From positions 2,063,482 through 2,127,481 of the forward strand of contig NZ_CP127390.1 of assembly GCF_030286045.1 (NCBI RefSeq): a stretch of DNA of 64,000 nt. Reading direction: 5' to 3'. The position numbers were made by a program, and so were the translations under genes. Under the pieces are notes generated by a model. It had not been told where the DNA came from. It saw only the letters and a list, made by a program, of their open reading frames with translations, and searched no databases. Source of the stretch: Propionimicrobium sp. PCR01-08-3. GTDB lineage: Bacteria > Actinomycetota > Actinomycetes > Propionibacteriales > Propionibacteriaceae. This document shows positions 8,315 to 28,152 of the stretch, one piece after another; the stretch's first letter is position 1; the number at the start of each line of letters is the position of its first letter.

Positions 8315-8320
8315 TAGACT
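8315..8320 (+). promoter_or_regulatory. Candidate -10 element (leaderless DUF2510 gene)
   Basis: TAGACT ends 7 nt before the ATG at 8328 and no Shine-Dalgarno sequence is present. This fits a leaderless transcript. Confidence 0.5.
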
Positions 8321-8327
8321 GCGTGAC

Positions 8328-9218: not shown

Positions 9219-9229
9219 ATCACGGCGCC

Positions 9230-9235
9230 TAGAAT
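9230..9235 (+). promoter_or_regulatory. Candidate -10 element of map (leaderless)
   Basis: TAGAAT ends 7 nt before the GTG at 9243. This spacing is what decides between the GTG codons at 9237 and 9243 as the map start. Confidence 0.5.
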
Positions 9236-9242
9236 CGTGGGC

Positions 9243-10145: not shown

Positions 10146-10163
10146 ATCTGGCCAGTCGGCATC

Positions 10164-11129
10164 GTGATGAACGGTCTGGGCGCAAACCACAACCGCGGTG
10201 TCGAGCGACCCGCAGATGGTCGTGGCCCGGATGCTCGCGCCGACGCTGTCTCTGTCGCCGCGACTGAGCGGGACGATGCCGATTGCCCCGGACACGACTT
10301 GTCTGCCGCAGATCGGCCATCGGGCAAGGGTCGATCCACCAGGTCACGGTGGCTGAGGCGGCTCATCGCGCTCGGCGTCGTCGTCTTCTTGGTTGCCAAT
10401 GTGGCGGTCAATCCGTGGTGCGCCAAGATCCGTTCTCTCGCCCTGATGTCGGGCTATGACTGGGTTTACGAACGTGATTCGGTCCCCCACGACACCGGAA
10501 TTCGCGCCGATATGCCGTTGGACGGCACGGAGTTGTATCCGCTGATGGTCACTTTCAATGATGATGCCGGAATGTCGCAGTGGTTGGGTGAGGACGTGCG
10601 ATTCACGGTGGATTTCACCTTCGCAGATTTCGAACCGTGGCGCGGTTATTCAGGCATCTACGACCCCGAGAATCCGCTCTACGGCGCTTATGTGGGCAGC
10701 TATTATGTGCAAGGTCTCGGGCGAGAACTGACCGACGACGAAGTCACGAAGATCGCCGAATTCGATCAGCGGCGGTTGGCTTTACCCGCGCTCGGCCTGG
10801 GATATTCGGACAATGAATTCACGGTGTTAACGTCCGAATCGGCGCCAGTTGAATTCAGCGGACACGATTGGACGAACTACCAGGCGTCCATCGTGACGAA
10901 TTGCCCTGCGCACTCCCCCGATGGTTTCCAGATCTCTCACCTGCAATTCGGGGGGCCTCCGGCAAGCTCGGAACAGTACCCCTTGTGTCAAATGTCGGCG
11001 CAGATCGATGTCGGGTACTTCCCCGATCAGGACCTCACGATCGGGCTCTACGTGCTTTCCACCAGCGCCGATACCACGTCTACGCTACGCGGACTGACCT
11101 CGCTGCGCACCCAGATCGTCCGGCGGTGA
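10164..11129 (+). CDS. Hypothetical membrane-anchored protein
   Basis: This protein has 321 residues and no recognised family. The first 60 residues are polar and likely disordered. One hydrophobic segment spans about residues 66-84 (LRRLIALGVVVFLVANVAVN), and a globular region with several aromatic residues and three cysteines follows. It probably sits in the membrane with an exported C-terminal domain. The start could be the GTG at 10164 or the ATG at 10167. It runs in the same direction as map, with an 18-bp gap. It ends 9 bp before the convergent gene fragment at 11139, next to the decayed sugar-acid locus. Confidence 0.7.
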   Translation: MMNGLGANHNRGVERPADGRGPDARADAVSVAATERDDADCPGHDLSAADRPSGKGRSTRSRWLRRLIALGVVVFLVANVAVNPWCAKIRSLALMSGYDWVYERDSVPHDTGIRADMPLDGTELYPLMVTFNDDAGMSQWLGEDVRFTVDFTFADFEPWRGYSGIYDPENPLYGAYVGSYYVQGLGRELTDDEVTKIAEFDQRRLALPALGLGYSDNEFTVLTSESAPVEFSGHDWTNYQASIVTNCPAHSPDGFQISHLQFGGPPASSEQYPLCQMSAQIDVGYFPDQDLTIGLYVLSTSADTTSTLRGLTSLRTQIVRR

Positions 11130-11138
11130 CCCGGAACC

Positions 11139-11396
11139 TCACTTGCTCTTTCGCTGGTCTCGCTCCCGTAGATACCGAGTGAAGTTGGTGCGGTTCCCGA
11201 TCATGTAGCTGGCCACCAGCTCCTCGGGTGTCACAGAAATCTGCCGAGTGAGATACCGGTAGACCAACGTATGCGAGTCGTCGGGATCGTCCATGTGATG
11301 CACCATTTCTGAACTTTTCTCGTCGGAATCGAACATGAATTTGTTCAGCTCTTTGAAGTACTTGAAGTACTGGTCTCTAAAGATATTGATGATAAG
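11139..11396 (-). pseudogene. 3' fragment of an unidentified gene, 5' part lost
   Basis: The reading frame FRDQYFKYFKELNKFMFDS to VASYMIGNRTNFTRYLRER is protein-like and less GC-rich than its neighbours. It has no start codon before it runs antisense into the truncated transporter at about 11,390-11,397. About 85 C-terminal residues remain. The charged, helical character might fit the C-terminus of a transcriptional regulator, but I cannot name the family. It points away from the transporter. The original arrangement was probably a divergent pair whose shared 5' region was deleted. Confidence 0.55.
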
Positions 11397-12319
11397 ACCG
11401 TCGCCGAATGGGTGCCGTTGCGTGAGCGCGCGTTGGCCTCCGGCCTGTTCGATACCGGCGGTGCCGTCGGTGCGGCGATCGTCTATCCGATCGTCGCCGG
11501 CATCATCGCACTGTCGGGATGGCGAACCTTGTTCCTGGTCTGCGGTGTGGTCGGCATCATCTGGGCATTGCTGTGGATCTGGCTCTACCGTCGTCCGCAG
11601 CAGCACCCGCGCATCGGCAAGGCCGAACTCGACATGCTCAATGTGGATCAAGCACGTAACCACCCGGGCGAAGCCGCCTACTCGCTGTGGGCGATGCTGA
11701 GCAGCGGCAAGGTCTGGGGCCTGATCCTCGCCTTCCTCACCCGTGGCTTCTCGCAGAGCTTCTTCATGACCTGGCTGCCGACCTTCCTGGCCACGGTCTA
11801 CGGCTTCACCTTGCTGCAAACCGGAACCCTCGCGGCTATCCCGATCGTGTGCGGTGTCGTTGGTAACCTGCTCGGCGGGTTCTTCACCGATGGCTGGTCA
11901 AGATCGGCAAGTCGCTCGGTTTCTCCCGCAAGCTCACCATTACGCTGGGCGTGCTCTCGGCCATGACCATGGCTCCGGCTGCCTTCATCGATAACGGGTA
12001 CTTCGCCTTGGCCATGCTGGCCTTCGCCAACTTCGGCACCCAGTTCGCGTCCGGCGCCATGTGGGCGCTGCCCGCGGACCTCGCACCGAACGAGGCTTCG
12101 GTCGGCCGCCTCGCAGGCATCCAGAACTGTGCGCTGTGGGCCGGATCGTTCATCAGCCCGATGTTCGTCGGATTCGTCGTGGACGCCGCCGGCGGCAACT
12201 TCACTATCCCGCTCATCGTCGGTGGCCTGATGGGCATTGTCACGATCTTCGCCATCACCGTACTGGTCGGAAAGGTAGCGCCCATCAAACTCAATGATCG
12301 TTTCAAGGTGTCGGAGTGA
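11391..12319 (+). pseudogene. Truncated and frameshifted MFS sugar-acid transporter (ACS family)
   Basis: The frame starts abruptly at DKTVAEWVPLRERALASGLFD, a motif from the middle of the N-terminal half of anion:cation symporters such as hexuronate or galactarate permeases. Roughly 100-140 N-terminal residues are missing. The sequence continues through several membrane segments to GGFFTD. The frame then changes between about 11,887 and 11,893: the expected continuation WLVKIGKSLGFSRKLTITLG is read in another frame, consistent with loss of one base. It then runs to FKVSE at 12,319. With both lesions it cannot give a functional 12-helix transporter. The downstream dehydratase suggests the substrate was an aldonate or hexuronate. 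Confidence 0.8.
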
Positions 12320-12321
12320 TA

Positions 12322-13533
12322 GTGAACAACGAAATCCTGAGAGCGCCCTGGGATGCCCGGGACTCGTCACCGAAGATCACCGCTGTCGACTGCTTCATCA
12401 CCGCCCCCGAAGGGGTCAATCTGGTGGTCGTCAAGGTGTCGACCGACGACCCAGAGATCTACGGTTTGGGCTGTGCGACGTTTGCCTATCGTGCGAGCGC
12501 TGTCGCCTGCGTCGTGCGCGACTATCTGGCGCCACGGTTGATCGGACGACCCGTCCGTAGCGTCACCGACACCTATGCGTCGATGCAGGTCGGCCCCTAC
12601 TGGCGTGGTGGCCCGATCGAGAACAGCGCCATCAGCGGGGTCGACATGGCGCTGTGGGATATCAAGGGCAAGCTGTGCGGCGAGCCCGTCTGATCATTGA
12701 TAGGTGGCCAGGTTCACGAATATCTGCCGACCCATCTGTCGGTTTTCGCGAGCTCGTTGGACGACCTCGTCCGCAAGGTCGGCGTGCGGGTGTCGCAGGG
12801 ATTCACCAAGTTCCGGGCGATGGTCGAGGGGCCCGACTTCGGGCATCCGAAGCTGACCGCGAAGCAGTTCGCGTCCAGTACCGCAGAGATCTTGACCACT
12901 CTCACCGCCGCGTACGGCGATGAGTTGGGGTTCACCGTCGACGTGCATGGACGCTACGAGCCGCAGGAGCTCTTCCATATCGCGCAGGCTCTCGAACCCT
13001 TCAACCTGGTGTATCTCGAAGATCCGTTTCCGCCCGAGCACCTCGACTGGCTGCCGCTGCTGCGCTCGAAGACCGCCCAGCCGATCGCGATCGGTGAGGT
13101 CTTCACCCTTCCCGAGCAGTATCAAAAGGCGCTCGCCGATCACAGCATCGATGTGGTTCGCAGCCATTTATCGATGATCGGCGGCTTTACTCCGGGTTTG
13201 AAGCTCGCCCACGTGGCCGAGTATTTCGGCTCGCAGGTGACCTTCCATGGGCCGACTGATCTGAGCCCCGTCGGGCATGCCGCGAATATCGCGATCGAGC
13301 TGGCCAGCCCGAATGTTCGCGTCCATGAGCATCATCAGCCCGCGGAGCAGACACAGCGGATCTTCCCCGGCGCGCCGATCGCCGAGGCCGGACGCATCTA
13401 TCCATGGATGAAGCCGGGCTGGGGAGTTGACTTCATTCCTGAAGAGGCCGCCAAGTATCCGGCGCTGCCCGATGAGGCGTTGTCGTCCTTGGAAGGGCAC
13501 CGCTCATACGACGGAGTCGTTGCCCGCCCGTAG
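12322..13533 (+). pseudogene. Enolase-superfamily mannonate/galactonate-type dehydratase interrupted by TGA
   Basis: This gene resembles RspA/ManD-type sugar-acid dehydratases. The N-terminal capping domain ([20 protein letters not shown] to [16 protein letters not shown]) is followed directly by TGA at 12,691-12,693. The same frame continues SLIGGQVHEYLP and on through the barrel domain. Metal-site motifs DVHGRYEP, YLEDPFPPEH and IAIGEVF, and the loop FHGPTDLSPVGHAAN, are all intact. The stop therefore replaces one residue in an otherwise complete frame of about 403 codons. I chose the GTG at 12,322 because GGAG lies 5 nt upstream; the GTG at 12,316 overlaps the transporter's stop. A barrel-only product from the TTG at 12,697 would lack the capping domain. 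Confidence 0.82.
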
Positions 13534-17176: not shown

Positions 17177-17554
17177 TCAAGAAGCGCGCGCCAATTGGGA
17201 AACTCGTTGGACTGATAGACCCAGGACTTGCGCGGTGTCCCGCAAAGTCAATCCATCAGCGCGCATTTGTGCCACCGCGGCCCGGGAAGCAGCGGCCGCC
17301 GCCAAGTCCGCTTGTCTCGCAGCTTCTGATTTGGTTCGATAGTCCTCGGCCAATGCCGCATAATCGCGATCCGAAAGATCAACTGACACGTCAAAATCCG
17401 ACTCGGGACGATCAGTCAGCAGAGAAGCGGCATCTTTGACCATGCCAGTGACTTCGTCCAAGCGTGCGGCCTGTGTATAAATGTCAAGTTCTGGCACGTG
17501 AATGGCCCACCATTTCCCATCGCGAACAACGCGAGCAGTAACCTTCATCGTCAT
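17177..17554 (-). CDS. HicB-family antitoxin with C-terminal helix-turn-helix
   Basis: This 125-residue protein has an N-terminal HicB-like domain (MKVTARVVRDGKWWAIHVPE). An Ala-rich helical middle follows, then a C-terminal sigma-like helix-turn-helix (ADGLTLRDTAQVLGLSVQRVSQL). It would neutralise the upstream HicA-type toxin and repress transcription. The ATG at 17,554 overlaps the toxin stop as TGATG; a GTG at 17,557 is an alternative. The pair sits between the galactokinase-family gene and the left end of the rnpB island, outside the attachment repeat. Confidence 0.85.
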   Translation of the reverse strand: MTMKVTARVVRDGKWWAIHVPELDIYTQAARLDEVTGMVKDAASLLTDRPESDFDVSVDLSDRDYAALAEDYRTKSEAARQADLAAAAASRAAVAQMRADGLTLRDTAQVLGLSVQRVSQLARAS

Positions 17555-17742
17555 CACTCCATCCCGAGTTGCTTGAAGATCCCTTTGGCAGTCAAATCGC
17601 TGATTTCACTGTGCCGAGCTACGACTGCCTGGCGCTCACCCAGCTTGACCTTCGTGTGATTCGCGCCTTCAGTTATGCGCAAGTCCTGATCTGTCCGACG
17701 AGCATAGGAGATGATTCGCTTCATCAGATCCCTGCGCTTCAT
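17554..17742 (-). CDS. HicA-family toxin
   Basis: This 62-residue protein has a double-stranded RNA-binding-like pattern typical of HicA. The basic N-terminus is KRRDLMKRIISYARRT, and the glycine loop with the presumed catalytic His lies in EGANHTKVKLGERQAVVARH. The C-terminus is KGIFKQLGME. HicA toxins cleave mRNA during translation. The ATG at 17,742 is preceded by TAGAAT with 6 nt between, suggesting leaderless expression. The usual order is kept, with toxin first and antitoxin second. Confidence 0.85.
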   Translation of the reverse strand: MKRRDLMKRIISYARRTDQDLRITEGANHTKVKLGERQAVVARHSEISDLTAKGIFKQLGME

Positions 17743-17748
17743 CACTCG

Positions 17749-17806: not shown

Positions 17807-17834
17807 GATGAGTCGGCCGTAAGCCGGGTTCTGA
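17807..17834. repeat. attL: 28-bp copy of the rnpB 3' end
   Basis: This is identical to 27742-27769. It begins GATGAGTCGGCCGTAAGC and ends GGGTTCTGA. It is the detached copy; the sequence to its right does not continue as RNase P RNA. Confidence 0.88.
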
Positions 17835-17938
17835 ACGGTATCTATCAACCACCAGCGGAGACGCAATGAAAGGCCGCTTGACTAGGTACGTAACACTATT
17901 GACTATCTTTGTTGTGTTGGATTAAATACGGTGATTCT

Positions 17939-17975
17939 GCGGACTTCTTGCGGACTTGCGGACTTCTTGCGGACT
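17939..17975. repeat. 19-bp tandem repeat near the island's left end
   Basis: A 19-bp unit beginning GCGGACTTCTTGCGGACT occurs twice in tandem (17939-17957 and 17958-17976, with the last base changed). Each unit contains the subrepeat GCGGACTT. It lies 105 bp inside attL, where accessory recombination or replication sites would be expected. Confidence 0.7.
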
Positions 17976-17991
17976 GGAGACCGCGCAAGGC

Positions 17992-18252
17992 ATGAGCACG
18001 AGAGCGATTGCGCCAGTGGCGGGCATCTCTCAACGCGGGGTGTCGAAGATTCAACAGAAGGTGAGAACCGAGTTCTCACCTGAACCCGACCCACTTGAAT
18101 CGAACGACCGCAAGACCACAGGTGTAAAGACTCTTTACACCTCACCCGAACATCCCGAACCCGACCCGATCCCCGACGACCCGGCATCCGGGCCCGAAGT
18201 GATCGACTTCGAGACCGGAGAGGTTGTCGAGACCGAGCCGCGCAGGGCTTGA
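17992..18252 (+). pseudogene. C-terminal fragment of a helix-turn-helix DNA-binding protein
   Basis: The frame GMSTRAIAPVAGISQRGVSKIQ is a helix-turn-helix like those in ParB/RepB-type phage proteins. A Pro/Glu-rich tail (SPEHPEPDPIPDD to TGEVVETEPRRA) follows. Upstream of this helix the frame runs into the 19-bp tandem repeat and a stop at 17,932, so the rest of the protein is missing. An 86-residue product from the ATG at 17,992 is possible. It points rightward, against the head operon, with its own terminator. It may be a remnant of an earlier element. Confidence 0.5.
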
Positions 18253-18271
18253 GTGTCGTCAGAGAGCTGCG

Positions 18272-18295
18272 CGTGCGTTACGCACGTGCCTTTTT
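18272..18295 (+). terminator. Rho-independent terminator
   Basis: CGTGCG and CGCACG flank a TTA loop, followed by TGCC and five T residues (18291-18295). It serves the rightward helix-turn-helix fragment. Confidence 0.65.
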
Positions 18296-18310
18296 CGGTG
18301 AAGCCAACGA

Positions 18311-18350
18311 AAAGACTCCCCGAAGGCCAGGAAACCTTCGGGGAGTCTTT
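18311..18350. terminator. Strong bidirectional terminator of the head operon
   Basis: A perfect 16-bp stem (18311-18326 with 18335-18350) encloses the 8-nt loop CCAGGAAA. A and T runs at the two ends allow it to work in both directions. It lies 59 bp after the last capsid-operon gene and faces the rightward fragment at 18252. Confidence 0.85.
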
Positions 18351-18408
18351 CTAACGGCGCGTCCTGAGGTGAACGCATTGCCCGGCGCTCTGCCGGACAT
18401 CTTTGGGG

Positions 18409-18738
18409 CTACAGCGCTTTGACGCGGTAGCGGTCGAGCACCTGGCGTTCGAGTAGGGTGAACCCGGCCCAGCCGGCGATGCTGTAGGAGCGTGGGCCTT
18501 CGGTCTCGCTGATTCTGAGGCCTGACGGGTTCTTGAGTACTCGTGCGGTGACCGAGTAGATCACTGCCCGGATTTCGTCGGCACACATGTCGTCGTCGAA
18601 GCCCTTGCCCCTGGTGTACGCCTTGGCCAGCGAGGTCACCAGGGGCAGGACTCCGGTCACGTCTTCGGTGTTGAACTCACCGTCCCCGGCCAGCCAGGCC
18701 AGGGCTTCGCCGGCAGCCGGGGCCTTCATCTCTGCCAT
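18409..18738 (-). CDS. Phage head-tail connector protein (Gp15/Gp19/gp6-like)
   Basis: This 109-residue protein is the last gene of the head operon. The segment VLPLVTSLAKAYTRGKGFDDD, DEIRAVIYSVTARVLKNPSGL, ETEGPRSYSI and GWAGFTLLERQVLDRYR match the helical adaptor that docks under the portal in actinophages. It starts 2 bp after the capsid stop codon. Its presence means the island can make a finished head ready for a tail, even though it encodes no tail. Confidence 0.75.
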   Translation of the reverse strand: MAEMKAPAAGEALAWLAGDGEFNTEDVTGVLPLVTSLAKAYTRGKGFDDDMCADEIRAVIYSVTARVLKNPSGLRISETEGPRSYSIAGWAGFTLLERQVLDRYRVKAL

Positions 18739-18740
18739 GA

Positions 18741-19607
18741 TCAGCGGGTGATGCCGGTCAGGGTGACGATCGCTTCAGGGTTCAGCGGTGCGGCGTCGTA
18801 GCGGGCCACCACGCGGATCGCCTGCTGGTCGTAGTCGGCGAACCGCTCGGTCAGGATCTTCACACTCGGGGCCATGTCGCGGGCCACGGCGATCTGAGAG
18901 AAGTCGACGAGAGCTGCGCGACCGGTCTCGGCGTCGTCCGGGATGCGGCTGGACACGACGACCGGGCATCCCCACAGCCGGAACACGCCGTCGGCGGTGG
19001 GATCGGCCTGCAGAAGGTACTGGTCGTTCTTGTCCTTGACCTTACGCAGCGCTACGAAGTCACCGGGGGTCAGCAGCCACTTGAGGCCGGCCATGTTGAC
19101 GTTGGCGGCCAGGGCCAGGCCCCAGGCGGTCAAGAGTGCGTCGAGGCTCAACGCACCGCCCACAGCGAGGGTCTGCGTGCCGGTGTAGGCGAACAGGCCC
19201 TTGGGAGTCGTGACGCCGTCGCCGGCAGCCGACAGGAACTGCGCATCGAGCTTGGCTGCCACGTCGTTGACGAGCCGGTCCTTGATAGCTGCGTCCAGGC
19301 CGATGGCGGACTGGCGGGCCAGCTCGTTCGAGTAGCGGGTCAGCGTCTTGACGGACTTCATCGTGGACGGCATCAGGGTGACTTCGTCGAACTCGATGTC
19401 GCGCTCACCGATCTGTTCGTTCTCGCCGGTGAAGCCGAGCCCTTCGGCGGTCGCCGGCTGGTTCTTCGGGATGCGGATAGGTCCGGCGGTGTCGAAGATG
19501 CGCGGGCCTGCGGCGAGGAAGACGCTCTGCTCTTGCAGCGGCGCGATGAGGATCTTCTGGATTTGCTCGTACGTGAGTTCGGTTGCGGTAGTGGTGTCGA
19601 CAGACAT
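18741..19607 (-). CDS. HK97-fold major capsid protein
   Basis: This 288-residue protein has features of HK97-like capsid proteins. These are an N-terminal arm, IRIPKNQPATAEGLGFTGE, the E-loop region IGERDIEFDEVTLMP, the spine helix LTRYSNELARQSAIGLDAAI, and the A-domain segment LWGCPVVVSSRIPDD. No prohead protease is encoded nearby, and the short N-terminus suggests no delta domain; scaffolding comes from a separate gene. AGGAG lies 8 nt before the ATG at 19,607 but is locked inside a hairpin (19613-19664). Translation of this abundant structural protein may be controlled there. Confidence 0.9.
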   Translation of the reverse strand: MSVDTTTATELTYEQIQKILIAPLQEQSVFLAAGPRIFDTAGPIRIPKNQPATAEGLGFTGENEQIGERDIEFDEVTLMPSTMKSVKTLTRYSNELARQSAIGLDAAIKDRLVNDVAAKLDAQFLSAAGDGVTTPKGLFAYTGTQTLAVGGALSLDALLTAWGLALAANVNMAGLKWLLTPGDFVALRKVKDKNDQYLLQADPTADGVFRLWGCPVVVSSRIPDDAETGRAALVDFSQIAVARDMAPSVKILTERFADYDQQAIRVVARYDAAPLNPEAIVTLTGITR

Positions 19608-19612
19608 GAAAA

Positions 19613-19664
19613 TAGCTCCTAGCGGGCTTGGTTTCGGTTGGAAACGTTCGCCCGCCAGGAGCTA
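19613..19664 (-). promoter_or_regulatory. Long hairpin enclosing the capsid gene ribosome-binding site
   Basis: In the minus-strand transcript a 15-bp stem (14 Watson-Crick pairs plus one G-U) joins 19664-19650 to 19627-19613. The inner loop adds a second stem (GTTTC/GAAAC). The 3' arm contains AGGAG, the capsid gene's Shine-Dalgarno sequence. ATTTTC follows, so it could act as a translational switch, an attenuator or an mRNA-stabilising structure. Confidence 0.65.
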
Positions 19665-19735
19665 AACGGGAGTGTCAGGGAGTGCCTGACTCCGTGGACC
19701 ACATCTTCACTATATACCCCAGGAGGGTATGGCGG

Positions 19736-20050
19736 CTAGCTCTTACGTTCGATTGTCATGATCACCCCGCGGGTGTAGGCGTAGGGCTCGCCGATGATCT
19801 TCCACTTCTTGCCGTCGGGGTAGATCAGGTCCCAATCAGAGGGGATGATGGCCTCACCCCGCGGCAGTGAGAGCGTCCTCGTGTCGGTGGTCTGCACGGC
19901 TCCCTGCTCGTCCTCGTCGGTACTGTTGGGCCAGTCGGTGCAGCCCTCGATGGTCCGCTGGCGTGGCGGGTCGATCGGGTTGCCGTACTTGTCATACTCC
20001 TTGATTTCGGCCACGAGCGTGAACTCGAACTTGCGTCGCCATCTGCTCAT
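19736..20050 (-). CDS. Probable head closure/head-tail stopper protein
   Basis: This 104-residue, beta-rich protein (KFEFTLVAEIKEYDKYGNPI, RTLSLPRGEAIIPSDWDLIYP, GKKWKIIGEPYAYTRGVIM) resembles the small stopper proteins that seal filled phage heads. The assignment rests on pattern and position, not on a diagnostic motif. I chose the ATG at 20,050 because AAGGTGG lies just upstream; longer in-frame starts overlap the 51-residue gene. It precedes the capsid gene here, whereas stoppers usually follow it, so the role is uncertain. Confidence 0.55.
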   Translation of the reverse strand: MSRWRRKFEFTLVAEIKEYDKYGNPIDPPRQRTIEGCTDWPNSTDEDEQGAVQTTDTRTLSLPRGEAIIPSDWDLIYPDGKKWKIIGEPYAYTRGVIMTIERKS

Positions 20051-20054
20051 CGGG

Positions 20055-20210
20055 TCACCACCTTTCCGGCAGCAGGGGCTTGCTCCGGCGCACACTGCGC
20101 GGCATCGGCGGCAGCGGAGGTAGCGGCTTGGGGTCTGGTGCATACTCCTTGGCGATGGTCTCCAGGGCGTCGGCGATACGGCGCAGCTCGATCAGAATGT
20201 AGTCGCTCAT
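20055..20210 (-). CDS. 51-residue island protein of unknown function
   Basis: The frame begins MSDYILIELRRIADALETIA and ends with a Pro-rich, basic tail (PLPPLPPMPRS, LLPERW). Its ATG overlaps the scaffold gene's stop as ATGA, and AGGTG lies 4-8 nt upstream. The stop codon is 4 bp before the next start. The N-terminal 23 residues look like an amphipathic helix. The tight packing inside the head operon argues that it is translated. No function is recognised. Confidence 0.6.
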   Translation of the reverse strand: MSDYILIELRRIADALETIAKEYAPDPKPLPPLPPMPRSVRRSKPLLPERW

Positions 20211-20719
20211 CGTGCACCTGCCCGAAGCATGGCGGCCAGGTCGACGTTCCCGCCGTCCGTCTGCTTGGCTCCCTGGCCGATGTCCCCGTGCGGCATCCGG
20301 GTCGCGTAGTGCGGGTGCTGGCTGATCAGCTCGTCGATGGCGGCGTCCAGCCTGCTGGGATCGTCCAGGATGGTCTCATCGAACGGCAGATCGTTCGGGT
20401 CGGCCAGCTTGCCTGTGGCGGCCACCCTGAGGGTGAACACCTCACGGGCCAGATCCTCGGCGCGCTTCGCCTTCACGCGGGCCTCAGCGGCTTCTTTGCG
20501 GATCTTCTCGACGTACTCCCGCGGGAAGGTATCGGCGTCGTCCTGCAATGCGTCGGTATTGCCGACGCCATCGGCCGGGTCGATGACCTCAGTACTGCTT
20601 AGGGTGTCGATCGAGCCGACACCCTCACTAGTAGTAAGGGATTGGCCATTGACGCCGTCAGTAGTGCTGACGCCATCGGTCCCGGTGGTGGTCGGATCTT
20701 CGGTCAGTTCGTCACTCAT
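20207..20719 (-). CDS. Head scaffolding protein
   Basis: This 170-residue acidic protein has a disordered N-terminal third rich in Thr, Ser, Asp and Gly. In that part, near-repeats of T(D/E)GV are encoded by partly repeated DNA. A charged helix follows (REYVEKIRKEAAEARVKAKRAEDLAREVF). The C-terminus is LAATGKLADPNDLPFD-like, ending DIGQGAKQTDGGNVDLAAMLRAGAR. This is the usual actinophage scaffold arrangement. It sits between portal and capsid genes, overlapping portal by 8 bp. I chose the ATG at 20,719 because longer starts extend only into the portal gene. Confidence 0.85.
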   Translation of the reverse strand: MSDELTEDPTTTGTDGVSTTDGVNGQSLTTSEGVGSIDTLSSTEVIDPADGVGNTDALQDDADTFPREYVEKIRKEAAEARVKAKRAEDLAREVFTLRVAATGKLADPNDLPFDETILDDPSRLDAAIDELISQHPHYATRMPHGDIGQGAKQTDGGNVDLAAMLRAGAR

Positions 20720-21998
20720 TGCTTGCTCCTGCCATCTGGTTGTTGATCTGGATAATTTCGTCGTTGCTGTAGCCGAGCTTGCGCAGGGCGTATTCACGGG
20801 GCAGCACACCTGCGGCCACGAGCTTCACGGCAGCGTCGGCGTCCTGTGCGACGCTGCGGGTGGCGGGGTCGGCCCACGAGATGCGGGCCTTGATCTCGGC
20901 GGGGTCTTGGCCGGTCCTGACGGCCACCATCAGCCGGGCGACTTGCTCCCAGCTCCGGCCGAATGCCGACTGCCTGGCCTCAACCCTCGCCGTCAGCGAG
21001 GCTTCGGACGCCCGCAAGGAATCGGCGCTGGCCGGCTGGTCACCGTAGGCACCCAGGTAGTGCGGCGGGAGTCCCGAGACAGCGGAGAGTTGGGCCTGCA
21101 GCACCCTGACGGCGGCTTCGTATCCGGCGAGGTCAGTGGCGTCGAGCTGGCCGAACTTCGAGGCGGGATCTTCGGCGAGCATCATCCGGTTGGTTTCGGG
21201 GAACGGGTTCACCGCGTGGGTTTCCCCGTCCTCGTCCTCGACCTCGATCGCCTCGATACCGGTCGCCCATCTGCGCGGGCGGCCGCTGTACTCGCTCGAC
21301 ACCATCAGATCGGCGAGCAGCTTGTTCAAACCGTCGGCCAACGGGATGATGTCGTCGAGTTCGGACGAGGGCCCGCTCAAGATACGATCCGAGCCCGAGA
21401 ACGGGATCACCGGGACCACGCCGAACGCGTTGGGCACCACAGTGGTGGTCGTGAAGCCGCTAGTGGCTCCTACGGCGTCCGAGTGCAGTCGGATGATCTG
21501 GTCGGGCAAATACAGCACGGCCTCGGTGCCGGTGGGCTGGTCAGGTGCCCCGGCCGTCCAGCGCTTCACAGCAGCCACCACAGCCCTGGTCGCAGGATCT
21601 CGCTCGACGGCGACCTGGTGGGCGCTCTCCACAGTCACCAGCGGGGTCCCGACGGCATCGGCCCAGACGATCACGAAGGATTCACCGAGCACCAAGGCTT
21701 CGCGATGCACCACACCAGATGTTTGGTCCAGGTCGTTGGCCAGCCAGTCATTCCACAGCTGCGGCGCGGCCTGCCCATCGATCGTCAGCCCGGTGACCCG
21801 CAACCGCTCGGCCAGCGAGTGCACCGCGATACGCGGCACGTTCGAGGCCATGCGATTGAACCGGGTGCCGATAGCCTCCCGTGCCTCGGGCGTCAGGAAC
21901 GCCAAGGGCTGCGTCCCGGCATAGTAGTTCTCAAGTGTCGCTCGTCGTGCCGCCCCGGCATCGAGCGCGGTCAGCATTCTTGTCAATTGATCCATCAT
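20712..21998 (-). CDS. Phage portal protein (SPP1 gp6-like)
   Basis: This 428-residue protein forms the dodecameric gate at one capsid vertex. It shows the family's typical start (LENYYAGTQPLAFLTPEAR, FNRMASNVPRIAVHSLAERL). Wing and crown segments include GVVPVIPFSG, LADLMVSSEYSGRPRRWATG and SAVSGLPPHYLGAYGDQPAS, and a C-terminal region carries LRKLGYSNDEIIQ. AGGAGA precedes the ATG. It follows the terminase gene with an 11-bp gap, matching ordinary phage order. Confidence 0.9.
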   Translation of the reverse strand: MMDQLTRMLTALDAGAARRATLENYYAGTQPLAFLTPEAREAIGTRFNRMASNVPRIAVHSLAERLRVTGLTIDGQAAPQLWNDWLANDLDQTSGVVHREALVLGESFVIVWADAVGTPLVTVESAHQVAVERDPATRAVVAAVKRWTAGAPDQPTGTEAVLYLPDQIIRLHSDAVGATSGFTTTTVVPNAFGVVPVIPFSGSDRILSGPSSELDDIIPLADGLNKLLADLMVSSEYSGRPRRWATGIEAIEVEDEDGETHAVNPFPETNRMMLAEDPASKFGQLDATDLAGYEAAVRVLQAQLSAVSGLPPHYLGAYGDQPASADSLRASEASLTARVEARQSAFGRSWEQVARLMVAVRTGQDPAEIKARISWADPATRSVAQDADAAVKLVAAGVLPREYALRKLGYSNDEIIQINNQMAGASNE

Positions 21999-22009
21999 CT
22001 TGTCTCCTT

Positions 22010-23473
22010 TTAGAAACTCATTGCCCGTCGGCGTTTCGGTTTATGCGTGGCTTTCCAGGTGGCTCGCGAGTGGCCCATAATCGCGGTCACAGCCAGGTCG
22101 ATATGGCGGGCCGAACTCTTGTTCTCTTTCCGTATTCGGACCCCTCGCACGTCATCGGTCAGAATCGCGTTCCCGATATGGCGGGCAAGATCCGGCGTCC
22201 CGTCATGGCTAACTTCGTGGTTAAGGCAGGACTGCACGAAGTCGTTGGTCGCCGGAGTCATCCGCACCGCCGTTTGCGGGAACTCGGTCGTCGGTATTCC
22301 TTCCTCGGCGATCACCTGCAGCGTCCGCGCCCAGCGGTACGGGTCGGCGGTCAGCTCGATCACTTTGTACTGCTTGGCCAGCTCCCTGATACGGTCCTCC
22401 ACCTCAAGGATCGGGACCCGGTAGTCGTCCTGGCCGGCGGGCGGCTCCCAGATGCCACCCAGGTTCATCAACGGGCTGGTCGACACCTGCGTAACCAGCA
22501 ACGCGGTGGAATCCCCGTTGAACGAACCATCCAGGGACAGCACCACATCGGCGCCGTCCGGGATGATCTCACCGGTGGCCAGCTCAGCCCACAAACCAGC
22601 AGGCAGCAGCGATGCGTCATCCTGCTCGACCCACTCACCCAGACGCGCCCTACGGAACTCCGACTCTCTTGTCCGGGGTGGAAGCACCGACTTGAGATGC
22701 GGACGGCTCACAAGGTCATCCAGGCCCGGATTAGCCTGCGCCCAGCAGTGCTCGCAGTCCACCGGATGTCCGATGTCACCCGCATACTCGACAAGAGCCA
22801 AGTCGGGTTGCGGGTTCGCCCTGGCCTCCAGCACCAGATCGAGCATCGGCGAGGTCTCCCGCCAGCTCGGCGGCGAAGGCGTGCCAATCATCAGCATCTG
22901 CGATTCAGCCCGTTTGCCGGTCGAGTTCACCAGCGACTCGTAAGCGTCACGACGGCAGAAACCGATCTCGTCCATGATCGCCAGCGACGCGTCCTCACCC
23001 TCGATCCGGGCCGACTCACCAGGCAGAGCCAAGATCTGGGAATCGCTACCAGGCATGTAAATGCGGTCCTTGTAGACCTGGCAGCGCTCGCCCATATCCT
23101 CGTTCAGCTCGACCATCCTCGCCGCGATATGCAGCAGACGAGAACTCGACCGCTCGTCCTGAGCCACGATCACGACCCGCGCGCCCTCGATACCGCTCAT
23201 AAACACGTGGAAGAGCCCCAAGGCGGCCACCAGAGTCGACTTACCCTGGCCACGAGGCAACGACCACAACGCCATACGCGGCCTCGGATCATCCAGCAAA
23301 GAGCCGGCCAACTCGATCTGCCAATCCCGCAGCTTCATCGGCTTACGCGCGCCCGTGCCCTTCGGGGTGACGACGTACTTCGAGCAGAAAAGAGCGAACT
23401 GACGAGCACCCTTCGACCTCGGGGACCACTCAAGCGGGGCCTCAACCGCAGAGCCCTTCGGACCCGCCTTCAC
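22010..23473 (-). CDS. Terminase large subunit
   Basis: This 487-residue ATPase-nuclease packages DNA into heads. The adenine-binding segment MKLRDWQIELAGSLLDDPRPR leads to the Walker A-like ALWSLPRGQGKST. The Walker B-like LAIMDEIGFCRR lies about 90 residues later. The nuclease domain begins with VVLSLDGSFNGDSTAL and includes ELTADPYRWAR. The start overlaps the HNH gene's stop by 4 bp (ATGA). A small terminase gene, usually immediately upstream, is not recognisable. Confidence 0.92.
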   Translation of the reverse strand: MKAGPKGSAVEAPLEWSPRSKGARQFALFCSKYVVTPKGTGARKPMKLRDWQIELAGSLLDDPRPRMALWSLPRGQGKSTLVAALGLFHVFMSGIEGARVVIVAQDERSSSRLLHIAARMVELNEDMGERCQVYKDRIYMPGSDSQILALPGESARIEGEDASLAIMDEIGFCRRDAYESLVNSTGKRAESQMLMIGTPSPPSWRETSPMLDLVLEARANPQPDLALVEYAGDIGHPVDCEHCWAQANPGLDDLVSRPHLKSVLPPRTRESEFRRARLGEWVEQDDASLLPAGLWAELATGEIIPDGADVVLSLDGSFNGDSTALLVTQVSTSPLMNLGGIWEPPAGQDDYRVPILEVEDRIRELAKQYKVIELTADPYRWARTLQVIAEEGIPTTEFPQTAVRMTPATNDFVQSCLNHEVSHDGTPDLARHIGNAILTDDVRGVRIRKENKSSARHIDLAVTAIMGHSRATWKATHKPKRRRAMSF

Positions 23474-23883
23474 GATTCATCCTCGGTGAGTGATTGAAAA
23501 TGCGACTGCCGGACGCCCCGCCCGGAAGAGCCAATCGGGTTATCCCCCCTGGTATTCCTTTCACCACGAGCCGAACCACGACGGTTATTGCATTTCTGAC
23601 AAACCACATCGACATCCTGCAATCGAATAGGCAACCCCAATTCATGCCTTTCCCACGCAATAGGCAAATGGTCACACGTCAGATTCTCCGTAGTCCCACA
23701 ATCAGAACAGAACGGCTGCAAACGACGAGCACGCAAGCTGAGCTTGTTCCAGTTCGTGTCATACCCAGCAGCACGCGACGCTCGCCTCGGCCGATCAGAC
23801 CGGTGCCTCACCGGATGCTCATCACAACGACCCGACGCGCACGGCACACCACACACGACGCACGGCGTCAACACGGCAGTCAC
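23470..23883 (-). CDS. HNH endonuclease
   Basis: This 137-residue protein carries an HNH fold with structural cysteine pairs (CSDCG and CQKCNNRRG) and the catalytic stretch LTCDHLPIAWERHELG. A second N-terminal CxxC set (CVVCGVPCASGRC) could bind another zinc. HNH nucleases next to terminase genes assist packaging in many HK97-type phages. It overlaps both neighbours by 4 bp, so all three genes are translationally coupled. Confidence 0.9.
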   Translation of the reverse strand: MTAVLTPCVVCGVPCASGRCDEHPVRHRSDRPRRASRAAGYDTNWNKLSLRARRLQPFCSDCGTTENLTCDHLPIAWERHELGLPIRLQDVDVVCQKCNNRRGSARGERNTRGDNPIGSSGRGVRQSHFQSLTEDES

Positions 23884-25265
23884 GACGCATCACCACAGTT
23901 CGGGTGAATCGTCTGTCCCGGCTCGGCCACGATCATGGACTCGCCACAGACCGCGCAGATGTTCGGGAACAGATCTTGGTTCTGCTCCCCCCCGTGAGGT
24001 TTTTCATCCGGTACTTCCGGTACTCCGGTACCGCTGCCTTGATCTTCGGGTACCGGAGTACCGTCAGTACCGTCAGTAGAACCTGACGGGCGGGGCTCAA
24101 GGTATCGGTCCCATGCATCGGCGAAGTCTCGTGAGTCGTAGCCGCGATACTTGACCGAGTTCTCTTTGATCTGCTTCGGGCCGATCTGATACTTCCCCAA
24201 TCGAAACGACAGCCCGCGCGCATTAAGCGGACCACCTTTCAGCCCAGACCACGGGGATTCCTCCATGCCATTTAGGCGATCGAGCAGATCATCGGTAGAT
24301 AGCCGATCAACCTGCGCATCGGTGAATGCTTGCCGGGTATCACGCAGCAGCAGGACACCCAACGACGGCGCCTTCTCGTGAGACCTGGCCACCATGCGAG
24401 TAGCCGCACCACGAGCACGCTCGGGCCAGACGCCACCAGCCAGGTCAGCCACCGCCAGTAGCGCTTCCCACACGTCCGCGTCCCGGTCTTCCACACCCTC
24501 GGGCATCACCGGCCACGACTGGCCAGCATCACCGGCAACAGACTCAGCCCATCGCGCCAACTGCTTACGCAGCTCGACCACCGGCTTGCTCTCGGCGTCC
24601 CTGCCCCGCCACGGCGTTGGCTTCGGCTCCGATGACTTCCGGCGGCGCATCCGCACCACCACCGAGCGAGTCATGATCGTGTCCGGCAGATCATCGAGCC
24701 CAGCAAGGGCAACCGCAGAATACGCCGGCAATTCCTCGGTAAAGACTTCCTTGCCGCGCACCACGCAGCGACCGGCGATAGCACCCTTCCGATGGCCGGC
24801 GTTCAACAGACCGCGCAGCTCTTCGTTGTCCTTGGCCTTCGGCCCGAAGATCGTGTCGATCTCATCGAACAAGATCGTCGGCCGCGCATCCTGATCAGCC
24901 ACCTTCCGGAACAGATACGCCGGGGTGGCATTCACCGCGTGCACGGGGTTGGGCACCAACGGTGCTGTGACCTCCAGAGCACGCGACTTCCCCGAACCAG
25001 GCTCAGGGCTCAAGAATGCGAGCCGTGGCGTCGAGTCCCAGCAGTTCATCAGCCAGGCATGCCCGATCCACAACACATGCGCCACCAGCTCGTCAGGACC
25101 CGGATAGATCACGAACCGCTTCAGATGCTCCTCAACGCCAGCCAGTACCTTCCAGCCGACCACCGGCTTACGGCTCGGTCTCGCCAACGGCCGCATATTC
25201 TCCGGCAACTCCCCCGGCAACACCTCCTTGCCGGGATCTCGATCGCTATCGAACATCGAGGTCAC
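23880..25265 (-). CDS. DUF3631 P-loop ATPase
   Basis: This 461-residue protein has a clear ATPase core: Walker A FLSPEPGSGKSRALE, Walker B PTILFDEIDTIF, then GLLNAGHRKGAIAGRCV and the arginine-rich DLPDTIMTRSVVVRMRRR. DUF3631 proteins are common in actinobacterial prophages and islands, where they accompany or replace replicative helicases. The C-terminus has a Ser/Thr/Pro-rich linker and a zinc-binding-like end (CAVCGESM, HPNC). It is the only replication candidate on the island. It overlaps its upstream neighbour by 4 bp. Confidence 0.85.
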   Translation of the reverse strand: MTSMFDSDRDPGKEVLPGELPENMRPLARPSRKPVVGWKVLAGVEEHLKRFVIYPGPDELVAHVLWIGHAWLMNCWDSTPRLAFLSPEPGSGKSRALEVTAPLVPNPVHAVNATPAYLFRKVADQDARPTILFDEIDTIFGPKAKDNEELRGLLNAGHRKGAIAGRCVVRGKEVFTEELPAYSAVALAGLDDLPDTIMTRSVVVRMRRRKSSEPKPTPWRGRDAESKPVVELRKQLARWAESVAGDAGQSWPVMPEGVEDRDADVWEALLAVADLAGGVWPERARGAATRMVARSHEKAPSLGVLLLRDTRQAFTDAQVDRLSTDDLLDRLNGMEESPWSGLKGGPLNARGLSFRLGKYQIGPKQIKENSVKYRGYDSRDFADAWDRYLEPRPSGSTDGTDGTPVPEDQGSGTGVPEVPDEKPHGGEQNQDLFPNICAVCGESMIVAEPGQTIHPNCGDAS

Positions 25266-25705
25266 GCTGCCTCCTCAAGATCGAAGAACTCGGCCACCTC
25301 GGCGGACGACATCTGCGCTAACAGCCAGGCATGACGCCTGCACTCGGCAGCAGCCCCATCAGCGAAGGGAGTCCCGATCGATTCCAGTTGCTCGGCCCGT
25401 CGCAGCCAGTAGGCCGGCATGGCTTCGCGTAGTGCGTCGACCAGCACCGAGAGAGACAGCCGCTCGGCGAGGTCAGGCAAGTCTGCAAGCATCTGAACCG
25501 ACGGCCGCGACGGGCCGACAGGTCGACCACGACCGTATTCATGAGCCCGGTCTGCTGATATGCTGGCCTCAGCTTCGTTAGCCAATTTGGTAGCCGTCCG
25601 GGACTCCACCCACGGGCGGCTACTTTCATTCCTGGCCCCTTCGGATTGGTCGTCAGCTCCGGTCGGCTGGTTCGAGATGCCCCCACAGGGGGCTAGCGAA
25701 GTCAT
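25262..25705 (-). CDS. Island protein of unknown function
   Basis: This 147-residue protein has a disordered, polar N-terminal half. The C-terminal half is helical (LSVLVDALREAMPAYWLRRA, AAAECRRHAWLLAQMSSAEV, EFFDLEEAA) and acidic at the end. It is not recognised. It overlaps the DUF3631 gene by 4 bp and the AlpA-like gene by 4 bp, so it belongs to the same leftward operon. By position it might assist replication or stand in for the missing small terminase; that is speculation. Confidence 0.65.
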   Translation of the reverse strand: MTSLAPCGGISNQPTGADDQSEGARNESSRPWVESRTATKLANEAEASISADRAHEYGRGRPVGPSRPSVQMLADLPDLAERLSLSVLVDALREAMPAYWLRRAEQLESIGTPFADGAAAECRRHAWLLAQMSSAEVAEFFDLEEAA

Positions 25706-25917
25706 GCTGCACTCCCTTTGGCGAACTGCTCATCGATCCACTGACGCACATCCGATTCGCGATACACCACGCGCCGACCGAGCTTCGCGGACTTCGGCCC
25801 GGTGCCCATATAGCGCCAATATCGAATCGTGGCCTCCGGCAACCCCGTAACCTCGGCAAGCTCCGGCGTCGATAGCAACTTCTCGAACTCTGGTTTGAAT
25901 CCCAATCTGTCAGTCAT
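25702..25917 (-). CDS. AlpA/excisionase-type helix-turn-helix protein
   Basis: This 71-residue protein has the MerR-like winged helix of AlpA/Xis families: LLSTPELAEVTGLPEATIRYW followed by GPKSAKLGRRVVYRESDVRQW. It is the first gene of the leftward operon and lies opposite the repressor. It could control excision, the operon, or both. I chose the ATG at 25,917 because GGGGGA lies 5-10 nt upstream; a longer start at 25,938 would ignore it. Confidence 0.85.
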   Translation of the reverse strand: MTDRLGFKPEFEKLLSTPELAEVTGLPEATIRYWRYMGTGPKSAKLGRRVVYRESDVRQWIDEQFAKGSAA

Positions 25918-25931
25918 GTCATCCCCCGCCC

Positions 25932-26014
25932 AACACACCGTTTAAGTGTTTCTACTTTGTACGATACTGACACTACACGCTGTTTGGTGTCAATCGCATG
26001 TACTTGTTTGGTGT
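25932..26014. promoter_or_regulatory. Candidate island operator region
   Basis: AACAC and GTGTT form an inverted repeat at 25932-25936 and 25946-25950. TGTTTGGTGT occurs twice as a direct repeat (25981-25990 and 26005-26014). All lie in the divergent gap between the excisionase-like and repressor genes, where the repressor would bind. Confidence 0.45.
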
Positions 26015-26023
26015 GTTTGTTGC

Positions 26024-26029
26024 TAGAGT
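26024..26029 (+). promoter_or_regulatory. Candidate -10 element of the island repressor (leaderless)
   Basis: TAGAGT ends 7 nt before the ATG at 26,037, and no Shine-Dalgarno site is present. Lysogenic repressors are often expressed from leaderless transcripts. Confidence 0.5.
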
Positions 26030-26036
26030 GCTGGCC

Positions 26037-26564
26037 ATGGGAACGAAAGATGCTGAGATCGGCGCGGCGATCAGACGACTACGCGAGCTAAATGGGATCA
26101 CTCAAGCCGAGCTGGCTAACGAACTCGGCTCGCGCGGCCTCGAAGGGTTTTATCCCCAAACCATCACAAAGATCGAAGCCGGCCAGCGAGCTTTGAAGTT
26201 TGAAGAGGCGCTGGACATAGCCGATGTACTTCATGTCACGCCCAACGCCCTTCGGCCCCAGCCAGAAAGTAGTTCCGCTAAGGAGCACCGAATTGTTCAA
26301 GACGTGCACGCTGCGATCTCGGCCGTGCACGCCCAGAAGGCGAGGTTTCAGGATCATGCGCAATCTCTGGACCAAGCAATTGAGGAAGTGCGTCGGGCGC
26401 TTAAGCGCGCCGATCACGCAGGAGTTGCTCTTAATGAAGAGCTAGCAGCAGATGCAATGGACACCATTTGCAAACAGCAGCCGGAAGCAGCATTGGGTGA
26501 ATATCGGATGCTGGCGTCACTTTGGGGGGAATCTGACGATGACCAGCATCCAGAAGAGATCTGA
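26037..26564 (+). CDS. Xre-family repressor of the island
   Basis: This 175-residue protein has an N-terminal helix-turn-helix (IGAAIRRLRELNGITQAELANEL, FYPQTITKIEAGQRALKFEEALDIADVL read in parts) and a helical, coiled-coil-like C-terminus (VHAQKARFQDHAQSLDQAIE). That C-terminus probably serves dimerisation; there is no LexA-type peptidase domain, so SOS self-cleavage is not expected. I chose the ATG at 26,037 over an upstream start at 25,998 because of the TAGAGT box. It overlaps the integrase gene by 26 bp, placing both in one transcript. Confidence 0.85.
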   Translation: MGTKDAEIGAAIRRLRELNGITQAELANELGSRGLEGFYPQTITKIEAGQRALKFEEALDIADVLHVTPNALRPQPESSSAKEHRIVQDVHAAISAVHAQKARFQDHAQSLDQAIEEVRRALKRADHAGVALNEELAADAMDTICKQQPEAALGEYRMLASLWGESDDDQHPEEI

Positions 26565-27711
26565 CGGCGTCTTCCGGGCAAGATACCGGGACGCTGCGGG
26601 CAAGGAGCACGCGCGTCACTTCAAGCTGAAGAAGGATGCTGTTCGGTGGCTGAACGAAGTAACCGCGTCGGTCGTGACCGGAATGTATGTCGATCCCGGC
26701 GCCGGCCGGATCACCTTCGAGGCCTACGCGGAGCAGTGGCGAGACTCGCAGGTCTGGCGTCCAAATACAGCTGACCAAGCCAAGACCTCGCTCAAGCGCG
26801 CCTACCCGTTGATTGGAGAAAGACCGCTCGACACGCTCAAACCCGCCGACATTCAGGGCATGGTTCGCCGGCTTTCCGAGACTCTCGCGCCAGCGACCAT
26901 CGAGGTGACCTACGCCTACGTCGCCTCGGTCCTGAAAAACGCGGCAACGAACCGACGCATCGCGAAGACGCCATGCGACGGCATCAAACTGCCCGAAGTC
27001 GTCCACGAGCAGGTCGACCCGCTGACGATTCGTCAGGTAGAGGCGATTCGGGATGCACTGCCCGATCGGTTCAAGGCGATGGTGACGCTCTCGGCTGGAA
27101 CGGGTATGCGCTTCGGCGAGGTGACAGGCCTTACCATCGATCGGATTCTCTTCCTCAAGCGCTTCATCAAGGTCGACCGACAGTGGTCAAAAGCGAAGAA
27201 TGAGAAGGGAAACATCGTGGCAGGCTTCGGCCCGCCGAAGACGCCTTCGTCCAATCGCGAGATCCCGCTACCTGACTCGGTGGCCGTTGCCCTGTCTGCA
27301 CACATCAAGACCTACGGAATCGGTGTGCACGACTTGGTCTTCGTCGGCGAGCGAGGCGCACCGTTGAGCCGAAAGAACTTTGCCAGAGCATGGCGCCGGG
27401 CTCTCTCCAAAGTGCGTGCGGCCGACGCTGACGCTATCGCCAAGTCCAAGCGCTCGGGAGGCGATTACGAACCGCTCAATCTTCCGAACGACATCACGTT
27501 CCACGATCTCCGTCACCACTATGCAAGCCTGCTGATCTTTGCCGGCCTAGACATCAAGACCGTGCAGGCCAACCTTGGACACAAGTCCGCACAGGAGACG
27601 CTGGACACCTACGCCCACCTTTGGCCGAACACCGAGGATCGCACGAGGCAGGCTGTCGACGCAGCGCTCAATCCTGCGGACTCTCGGCGGACCAACGCCC
27701 AAGAATCTTAG
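26539..27711 (+). CDS. int: Tyrosine recombinase (integrase)
   Basis: This 390-residue integrase has an Arm-binding N-terminus (SIQKRSDGVFRARYRDAAGKE), a core-binding SAM-like domain, and the catalytic domain. The active-site residues appear in order: Arg in SAGTGMRFGEVTGL, Lys in the beta-hairpin after LFLKRFIKVDRQWSK, His-x-x-Arg in FHDLRHHYASL, His in LGHKSAQETL, and the nucleophile Tyr in DTYAHLW. The ATG at 26,539 has GGGGGGA upstream. It ends 30 bp before attR, the usual place for an integrase that recombines at rnpB. Confidence 0.95.
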   Translation: MTSIQKRSDGVFRARYRDAAGKEHARHFKLKKDAVRWLNEVTASVVTGMYVDPGAGRITFEAYAEQWRDSQVWRPNTADQAKTSLKRAYPLIGERPLDTLKPADIQGMVRRLSETLAPATIEVTYAYVASVLKNAATNRRIAKTPCDGIKLPEVVHEQVDPLTIRQVEAIRDALPDRFKAMVTLSAGTGMRFGEVTGLTIDRILFLKRFIKVDRQWSKAKNEKGNIVAGFGPPKTPSSNREIPLPDSVAVALSAHIKTYGIGVHDLVFVGERGAPLSRKNFARAWRRALSKVRAADADAIAKSKRSGGDYEPLNLPNDITFHDLRHHYASLLIFAGLDIKTVQANLGHKSAQETLDTYAHLWPNTEDRTRQAVDAALNPADSRRTNAQES

Positions 27712-27741
27712 TATCGCACCTAGTCAGATCGAACGAGTAAG

Positions 27742-27769
27742 GATGAGTCGGCCGTAAGCCGGGTTCTGA
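27742..27769. repeat. attR: 28-bp repeat at the intact rnpB 3' end
   Basis: This is identical to 17807-17834 and forms the 3' end of the intact RNase P RNA gene. Insertion here rebuilds the complete RNA, so the host function is preserved. Confidence 0.88.
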
Positions 27770-28152
27770 TCTCCCGAAGGAGTGGTGATCATCCATCTGC
27801 GACCACCATTGCTGGTGGCCTTCCGCTGGGCCTTTCGACCCAGCCGCGCGACCTACCCGGAAGCTTGGGCGGGCAGCCCTCAAACACTTCCGCAGACGCC
27901 CGTGGGCGTCCTCTTGGTCTTGCTCCAGGTGGGGTTTACCGTGCCGCGACTGTCGCCAGCCGCGCGGTGGTCTCTTACACACGCCGTTTCACCCTTACCC
28001 GGACCTCGTTCGCCGAAGCGAACCGGTATCTGGGCGGTCTGTTCTCTGTGGCACTGTCCCGCGGGTCACCCCGGGTGGGCGTTACCCACCACCTTGCCCT
28101 GTGGAGCCCGGACTTTCCTCAGCTTGCGCCGCGATCACCCGGCCGACTCATC
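27742..28152 (-). ncRNA. rnpB: RNase P RNA (bacterial type A)
   Basis: This is the catalytic RNA that trims tRNA 5' leaders. On the minus strand the 5' region carries the highly conserved GAGGAAAGTCCGGGCTCC block followed by ACAGGGCA (around 28,096-28,121). The 3' end carries the GAACCCGGCTTACGG signature and CCGACTC. The outermost GAGTCGGCC (28,141-28,149) pairs with GGCCGACTC near 27,745, forming helix P1; this sets the ends to within a few bases. Length is about 411 nt, typical of actinomycetes. Its 3' end is the island's integration site. Confidence 0.95.

Follow-up and report, generated by a model that had tools for sequence, protein, structure and literature searches.

What kind of mobile element would carry genes to build and fill a phage head, and no recognisable genes for a tail, is the question raised by a 9.96-kb island in the chromosome of Propionimicrobium sp. 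PCR01-08-3. The island occupies positions 17807-27769 of the 64-kb stretch analysed here (hereafter the window; NZ_CP127390.1, positions 2,063,482 to 2,127,481), and abuts the RNase P gene rnpB. Very likely, in our view, it is a phage satellite: it would make a capsid for itself, package its own DNA, and take its tails from a helper siphophage, a reading drawn from its gene content and from the recurrence of its layout in other genomes.

The island is flanked on both sides by 28 bp of the rnpB 3' end, repeated directly and without mismatch. The left copy of this attachment (att) repeat (17807..17834) matches perfectly the right copy (27742..27769), which lies within the 3' end of an intact host rnpB (27740..28150, minus strand; full-length class A RNase P match, RF00010, 249.5 bits). 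These repeats indicate that insertion is at the rnpB 3' end, and that the 28-bp repeat leaves the gene whole. A first-pass annotation of the window had placed an island of about 10 kb at rnpB, and this is borne out by the rnpB match together with the att repeats, the length of the repeat being corrected to 28 bp.

Leftward from rnpB, the plus strand encodes a tyrosine integrase (26539..27711; PF00589, 1.3e-23; start set at an ATG overlapping the repressor gene) and a helix-turn-helix (HTH) repressor (25998..26564; PF01381, 3.5e-10). The genes that follow are on the minus strand: an AlpA/excisionase-type HTH regulator (25702..25938; PF12728, 1.5e-10, and PF05930, 2.8e-6), an open reading frame (ORF) of 147 amino acids (aa), a DUF3631 ATPase (23880..25265; PF12307, 1.3e-55) that is probably the replication protein, an HNH endonuclease (23470..23883), the terminase large subunit (TerL; 22010..23473; PHROG 9, 2.7e-71), a portal protein (20712..21998; PHROG 104, 1.2e-102, and PF05133, 3.2e-35), a head scaffolding protein (20207..20722; PHROG 233, 4.9e-6), the head closure protein Hc1 (19736..20143; PHROG 501, 1e-9), an HK97-type major capsid protein (18741..19607; PF05065, 4.2e-43), and the head-tail adaptor Ad1 (18409..18738; PHROG 137, 5.3e-5). 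The HNH call rests on weak profile matches (PHROG 8828, 0.0034; Pfam, 0.072) and on position, upstream of TerL as in all 19 islands described below. The head and packaging set runs as far as the head-side connectors, past which no gene is recognised. The initial gene list therefore stands by profile for the integrase, repressor, AlpA, DUF3631, TerL, portal, scaffold, and capsid genes, and weakly for HNH, and the gene called 'stopper-like' is corrected to Hc1, before the capsid gene. All island genes are open, as annotated, and Pfam and PHROGs profiles identify no tail or lysis family among the island proteins, in keeping with the absence of such genes noted earlier.

The same layout recurs widely. 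A portal search at E <= 1e-60 gave matches in 3 of 396 genomes from the phylum, in 8 of 198 from the family, and in 11 of 394 from the class; the island's own genome is counted in each set and some genomes overlap, giving 18 distinct genomes. Twenty chromosomal loci were examined from 17 of these 18, leaving out G540 (portal 51%, near a contig end), and 19 of them (16 genomes, the window island included) have matches to HNH, TerL, portal, scaffold, capsid, and Ad1 in one order. An integrase match is present in 17 of the 19 and an AlpA match in 10. Exact flanking repeats of 17-58 nt bound 16 islands (14 genomes), the repeat in one of them, L030, extending to 72 nt with one mismatch. The 16 att-bounded islands span 9,607-11,710 bp (median 10.07 kb); their insertion sites overlap a tRNA called by ARAGORN in 12 cases and rnpB in two (the window island and L147), with a tRNA-like repeat where no tRNA was called in L148 and a different site in L154. 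Chance is not a sensible account of this pattern, because the core gene order recurs in 19 islands from 16 genomes, 16 of them (14 genomes) att-bounded. L159 (G962, portal 34%) was considered as an island and dropped: it has no HNH, scaffold, or capsid match, and is a different phage.

Only 261-1,396 bp separate the last core match (Ad1 or capsid) from the outer end of the repeat in the 16 att-bounded islands; in L151, extra ORFs take up about 3 kb between scaffold and capsid. The 117 non-core ORFs of these 16 islands, called by a simple script, were scanned against Pfam and PHROGs; no tail or lysis family is in the complete Pfam lists (13 and 14 families), nor among the PHROGs matches listed (the best 25 of 47 and the best 25 of 38 families). 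Among the listed PHROGs matches, a head maturation protease profile matches at least 5 of the 117. For replication, the relatives encode AAA_25 or primase/helicase families, and the window island the DUF3631 ATPase.

The range of the layout was extended by a contig scan (best 80 of 105 confirmed stretches), for which 45 of the 81 loci L046-L126 were tabulated for gene content. Twelve of the 45 have capsid-module matches; they span 7.2-11.4 kb, with portal identity at 40% or above, and the remaining tabulated loci, with no capsid match, have portals of at most 38%. A scan of named genomes gave one distant contig only. In Tsukamurella tyrosinosolvens (NZ_LR134447.1), an island lies at about 2514-12544 of locus L197. 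Directly after it in this plasmid is a second integrase gene (L197 12949-14106), which suggests tandem integration. A maximum-likelihood tree of 63 portal rows, rooted at the midpoint, places 30 of the 32 capsid-bearing rows on one side of a 99/95 branch, with the portals of L056 and L057 separate from these 30; given this grouping, the tail-less plan looks old and shared.

The host chromosome has a second such island (L028, 7310-17300), at tRNA-Val(CAC), with a 27-nt repeat at a spacing of 9,964 bp. The stretch of L028 that matches window 18234-23882 is 99.4% identical, and identity stops at the start of HNH, the start codon of which is the edge of the capsid operon common to both islands; the HNH proteins are 98% identical. 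Outside the operon the two islands diverge: the integrases are 28% identical, the AlpA proteins 38% over 37 residues, and the ATPases are unlike save for a 30-residue part. The two copies have 32 differences over 5,649 sites, and 25 of the 30 coding differences are silent, compared with a null mean of 9.0 (sd 2.4, maximum 18 in 2,000 draws). This excess of silent changes suggests selection on the capsid-operon proteins.

A comparable pair occurs in an unrelated genome, G234, where islands L144 and L145 have different integrases and share blocks of 4,250 bp (99.3%) and 1,753 bp (99.6%), split by about 0.6 kb of unlike DNA between scaffold and capsid; the shared stretch extends from the HNH ATG to 2 nt past the stop codon that ends the last gene of the operon. 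Two islands are also present in G539, and these are not near-identical. The capsid operon, from HNH to the connectors, thus appears to move between islands with different integrases, and one cell can therefore hold two islands of one capsid type at two att sites. We suggest, tentatively and with more doubt than conviction, that the operon, running from the start codon of HNH through to the head-side connectors, is a transferable module that swaps its integration and replication partners, placing one shell type at several att sites per cell, with HNH and an adjoining packaging site perhaps driving the exchange. In phages, nuclease genes are known at exchange boundaries, and the HNH nuclease of HK97, encoded upstream of the terminase and the cohesive-end (cos) site, cuts cos together with the terminase (PMC10448857). 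By analogy, the region of HNH and cos could favour exchange; the boundary could also reflect selection for head parts that match.

A candidate packaging site is present at the HNH-TerL junction, where the motif CCAGGGGGG (23544..23552, minus strand) may mark cos. At the same place, CCAGGGGGG is found in 9 of 28 non-redundant islands compared with 0 of 963 control windows, and the looser CCWGGGGR just past the HNH core in 17 of 28 compared with 11 of 963; these counts omit the near-copies L028, L145, L047, and L057, and the phage L159. The cleanest comparison is a held-out test, in which CCAGGGGGG occurs in 4 of 11 islands and in none of 368 control windows. Selection of the looser patterns came after all rows had been seen, and the CCWGGGGR window as first placed (10/17 and 4/11) was re-placed since it missed the window-island copy, giving 11/17 and 6/11. 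In the 400 bp upstream of HNH, no 9-mer is common to at least 5 of 17 islands; it was before TerL that CCAGGGGGG emerged. In the 64-kb window by itself the number of copies of this 9-mer does not exceed chance (1 observed, 0.73 expected). The motif occurs in each of the three reading phases, where it specifies different residues, and so it is the DNA, not the protein, that seems conserved. A viral contig of 8.1 kb, L057, is circularly permuted with respect to its near-copy L056 and has its ends close to the HNH-TerL junction; the permutation implies that the DNA passes through a circular or concatemeric form. With its ends joined, L057 aligns with L056 over 5,136 bp (91%), with a 10-nt gap near the joint, about 30 nt downstream of a G-rich stretch; L056 itself has no exact motif match, only a related G-rich stretch. 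The joint would fit cos ends with lost overhangs, one contig being thin evidence.

For integration, the window integrase evidently belongs to an rnpB-specific group. At E <= 1e-50, integrase matches are present in 7 of 197 family genomes, and the five integrases at 52% identity or above (the window, G015, G528, G593, and G584) are all beside rnpB; around the other two (35% and 42%), no rnpB is present in the short stretch fetched. The element in G528 (L147) is a second rnpB satellite, in another genus, of 9,607 bp including both 17-nt repeats, and is the one further case found of the same module at rnpB. In G015, the rnpB element (L198, 3580-15144) is 11.5 kb with a 33-nt repeat; it has an integrase 51-56% identical and the same kind of repressor and AlpA gene as the window island, and its cargo comprises a TrwC relaxase, a PIN-type toxin gene whose partner is weakly similar to Phd, and a large unnamed protein, with no match to the capsid genes. 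The integration module therefore travels without capsids.

Short repeated boxes near the island ends are probably arm-type sites of this integrase. Four TGCGGACT boxes lie at 17938..17975 (plus strand), and all six copies in the window are near the two island ends; the number itself is within chance for 64 kb (shuffle mean 2.7, with 4 of 100 shuffles reaching six). GCGGACT occurs eight times in the island, two of these interior (shuffle mean 2.0, maximum 6), and GCGGACT pairs spaced 11 bp apart are found close to each end of L147 and to one end of L198, single copies occurring at other places. The 28-nt att pattern has no exact match in the seven other genomes of the genus. Four sister loci (G005, G006, G007, and G002) were fetched for an empty-site check, none of which has island DNA in 5-6 kb, and an empty site was found in one sister species: in G005, galK (71%), rnpB, and an ABC transporter gene (84%) are consecutive, with about 110 bp between galK and rnpB.

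A candidate for the helper is present in the same assembly. The second contig (G000 C2; L032, L033, and L206), of 40,493 bp, is probably circular, because its start is the ATG of a capsid gene and its other end carries the ribosome-binding site of that gene. It encodes TerL, portal (28% match), capsid, Ad1, neck, tail terminator, major tail protein, a 1,333-aa tape measure, fibre, endolysin, and integrase, and is apparently a complete temperate siphophage, the top-ranked relative of its tape measure being that of Propionibacterium freudenreichii phage B22 (44% over 78%). The island gene set ends where the siphophage continues to neck and terminator. DNA common to the islands and the siphophage consists only of 20-28 bp matches with a weak E-value. 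A PF10145 tail search of the host genome found nothing, not even in the siphophage contig with its PHROGs-recognised tape measure, and so cannot exclude other tail sources. We treat this phage as the hypothetical helper of the island.

Several findings weigh against the satellite interpretation or parts of it. No window-island gene is named as the terminase small subunit (TerS) by profiles, the AlpA-type protein giving weak matches to TerS profiles (0.005 and 0.021), and no prohead protease is recognised in the window island, which has a scaffold instead. Two of the 19 islands have no match to the window integrase, only 10 match the AlpA protein, and an att repeat was undetected in three. No galK match is beside rnpB in G006, G007, or G002, which leaves G005 as the sole basis for the empty site. 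The siphophage Hc1 is 26% identical to that of the island over 88 residues (pairwise E 0.003) and the Ad1 proteins give no alignment; with connectors so dissimilar, the siphophage may not be the helper.

The same gene content can be read in other ways. That the island is a defective prophage from which tail and lysis genes were recently deleted would account for its phage-like head genes and for portal relatives at 38% identity in complete phages. The annotation itself had pointed to relatives with a contiguous tail and lysis module as what would speak for such a deletion; a contiguous tail module was found in none of the 18 other islands with a capsid module, and the deletion-derivative reading was rejected after these 18. 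Both att ends are also intact, the tail-less layout is found in 19 islands of 16 genomes at many sites, with narrow sizes where repeats allow measuring, 30 of the 32 such portals group together, and silent changes dominate between the two host copies, all of which makes recent deletion very improbable. Somewhat less remote, and still improbable, is a role for the capsid genes in phage interference or in the carriage of other DNA (gene-transfer-like), with the element moving otherwise. The G015 element, with a like integration module, a TrwC relaxase, and no capsid match, is in favour of this; the island's own TerL, HNH, portal, and connectors and its size of about 10 kb fit self-packaging, and Pfam and PHROGs profiles find no relaxase family in the window island. 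An autonomous small virus that needs no helper tail and leaves by some unknown route would explain the head and packaging set and the ATPase, but Ad1 and Hc1 would have no obvious use if a tail were lacking, and no lysis gene was found; we regard this as scarcely probable. The satellite status proposed at first is therefore supported, no contiguous tail module having been found in the 18 other islands.

As a phage satellite, the island could have the following life cycle. A helper would relieve repression of the island, with AlpA aiding expression or excision, and the integrase would excise an island circle, to be replicated by the DUF3631 ATPase and its neighbours. TerL with HNH would cut at a site in the HNH-TerL junction, the genome of about 10 kb would fill a small scaffold-built capsid, and Ad1 and Hc1 would dock on a helper tail, the helper also providing lysis.

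Capsid-forming phage-inducible chromosomal islands (cf-PICIs) are established, with three capsid clades reported and tail-borrowing tested for an E. coli island (PMC11389934), and alpA is named as a signature gene (PMC10448857). The window island resembles them in having an integrase and specific att site, AlpA, terminase, HNH, portal, capsid, and head-tail connectors, and no tails. It differs in that TerS and a prohead protease are not recognised and a scaffold is present, that the DUF3631 ATPase replaces a recognised Pri-Rep, and that the att site is rnpB. Because the prohead protease and TerS are unrecognised, we say only that, by its gene set, the island would work like a cf-PICI. Classical Gram-positive PICIs have no phage structural genes and are about 15 kb (PMC6092414), unlike this 10-kb island with its capsid operon.

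Nearer parallels come from actinobacteria. Candidate PICIs of Mycobacterium, including phiRv1 and phiRv2, have integrase and capsid, some with scaffold, terminase, helicase, and in some cases tRNA sites (PMC10654092), which is about the plan of the window island; five of our islands from another family of the same class (L146, L152, L153, L155, and L156; f7) may belong to this group. The main text of that paper does not have rnpB, and the available portions of it do not describe one capsid operon in two islands of one genome. MulchRoom and MiniFlayer are capsid-encoding Streptomyces satellites, MulchRoom having small capsids, long tails, and an integrase, and predicted Actinomycetota PICIs with capsids have also been reported (PMC10690885). 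As they are described, MulchRoom and MiniFlayer resemble the island in being capsid-encoding actinobacterial elements; it is unlike them in that their helpers are presumed virulent and they have no primase homologues (PMC10690885). Also close in its integration is the element of G015, which shares the kind of integrase, the repressor, AlpA, the rnpB site, and GCGGACT boxes, and is distinguished by its TrwC relaxase, PIN-type toxin, and lack of a capsid match. The initial view of an actinobacterial capsid island at rnpB as a notable form thus needs dividing: capsid-bearing satellites had already been proposed in Actinobacteria, and no use of rnpB as an att site turned up in the literature searches made for it, which were partial in coverage. 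What is new is the second island sharing the operon, the candidate packaging site, and the candidate helper.

An actinobacterial survey notes that experimental validation lags in this group (PMC10023795). With two islands of nearly the same capsid operon and an apparently complete siphophage in one assembly, direct tests of helper dependence and of competition between the twin satellites become possible, and the rnpB-specific integrase group, the likely arm boxes, and the candidate packaging site yield precise predictions. Exchange of whole capsid operons, if true, would help to explain how one capsid lineage comes to be at many insertion sites.

Some smaller features complete the locus. The 147-aa ORF (25262..25705, minus strand) matches no named family in Pfam or PHROG profile searches, and an iterated profile search over island ORFs identifies a C-terminal domain common to other islands. 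An open frame of 98 aa (17956..18252, plus strand) is of uncertain reality; it is not common to the second island, where the identical stretch begins at 18234. Between galK and the left att site (window 17177-17745) are two small genes, one of them weakly similar to HicA, and neither has a match in the G005 empty site. Elsewhere in the host chromosome, a 257-bp segment (L043, G000:C1:2994946-2995202), 75% identical to window ~25261-25514, is possibly the trace of another island.

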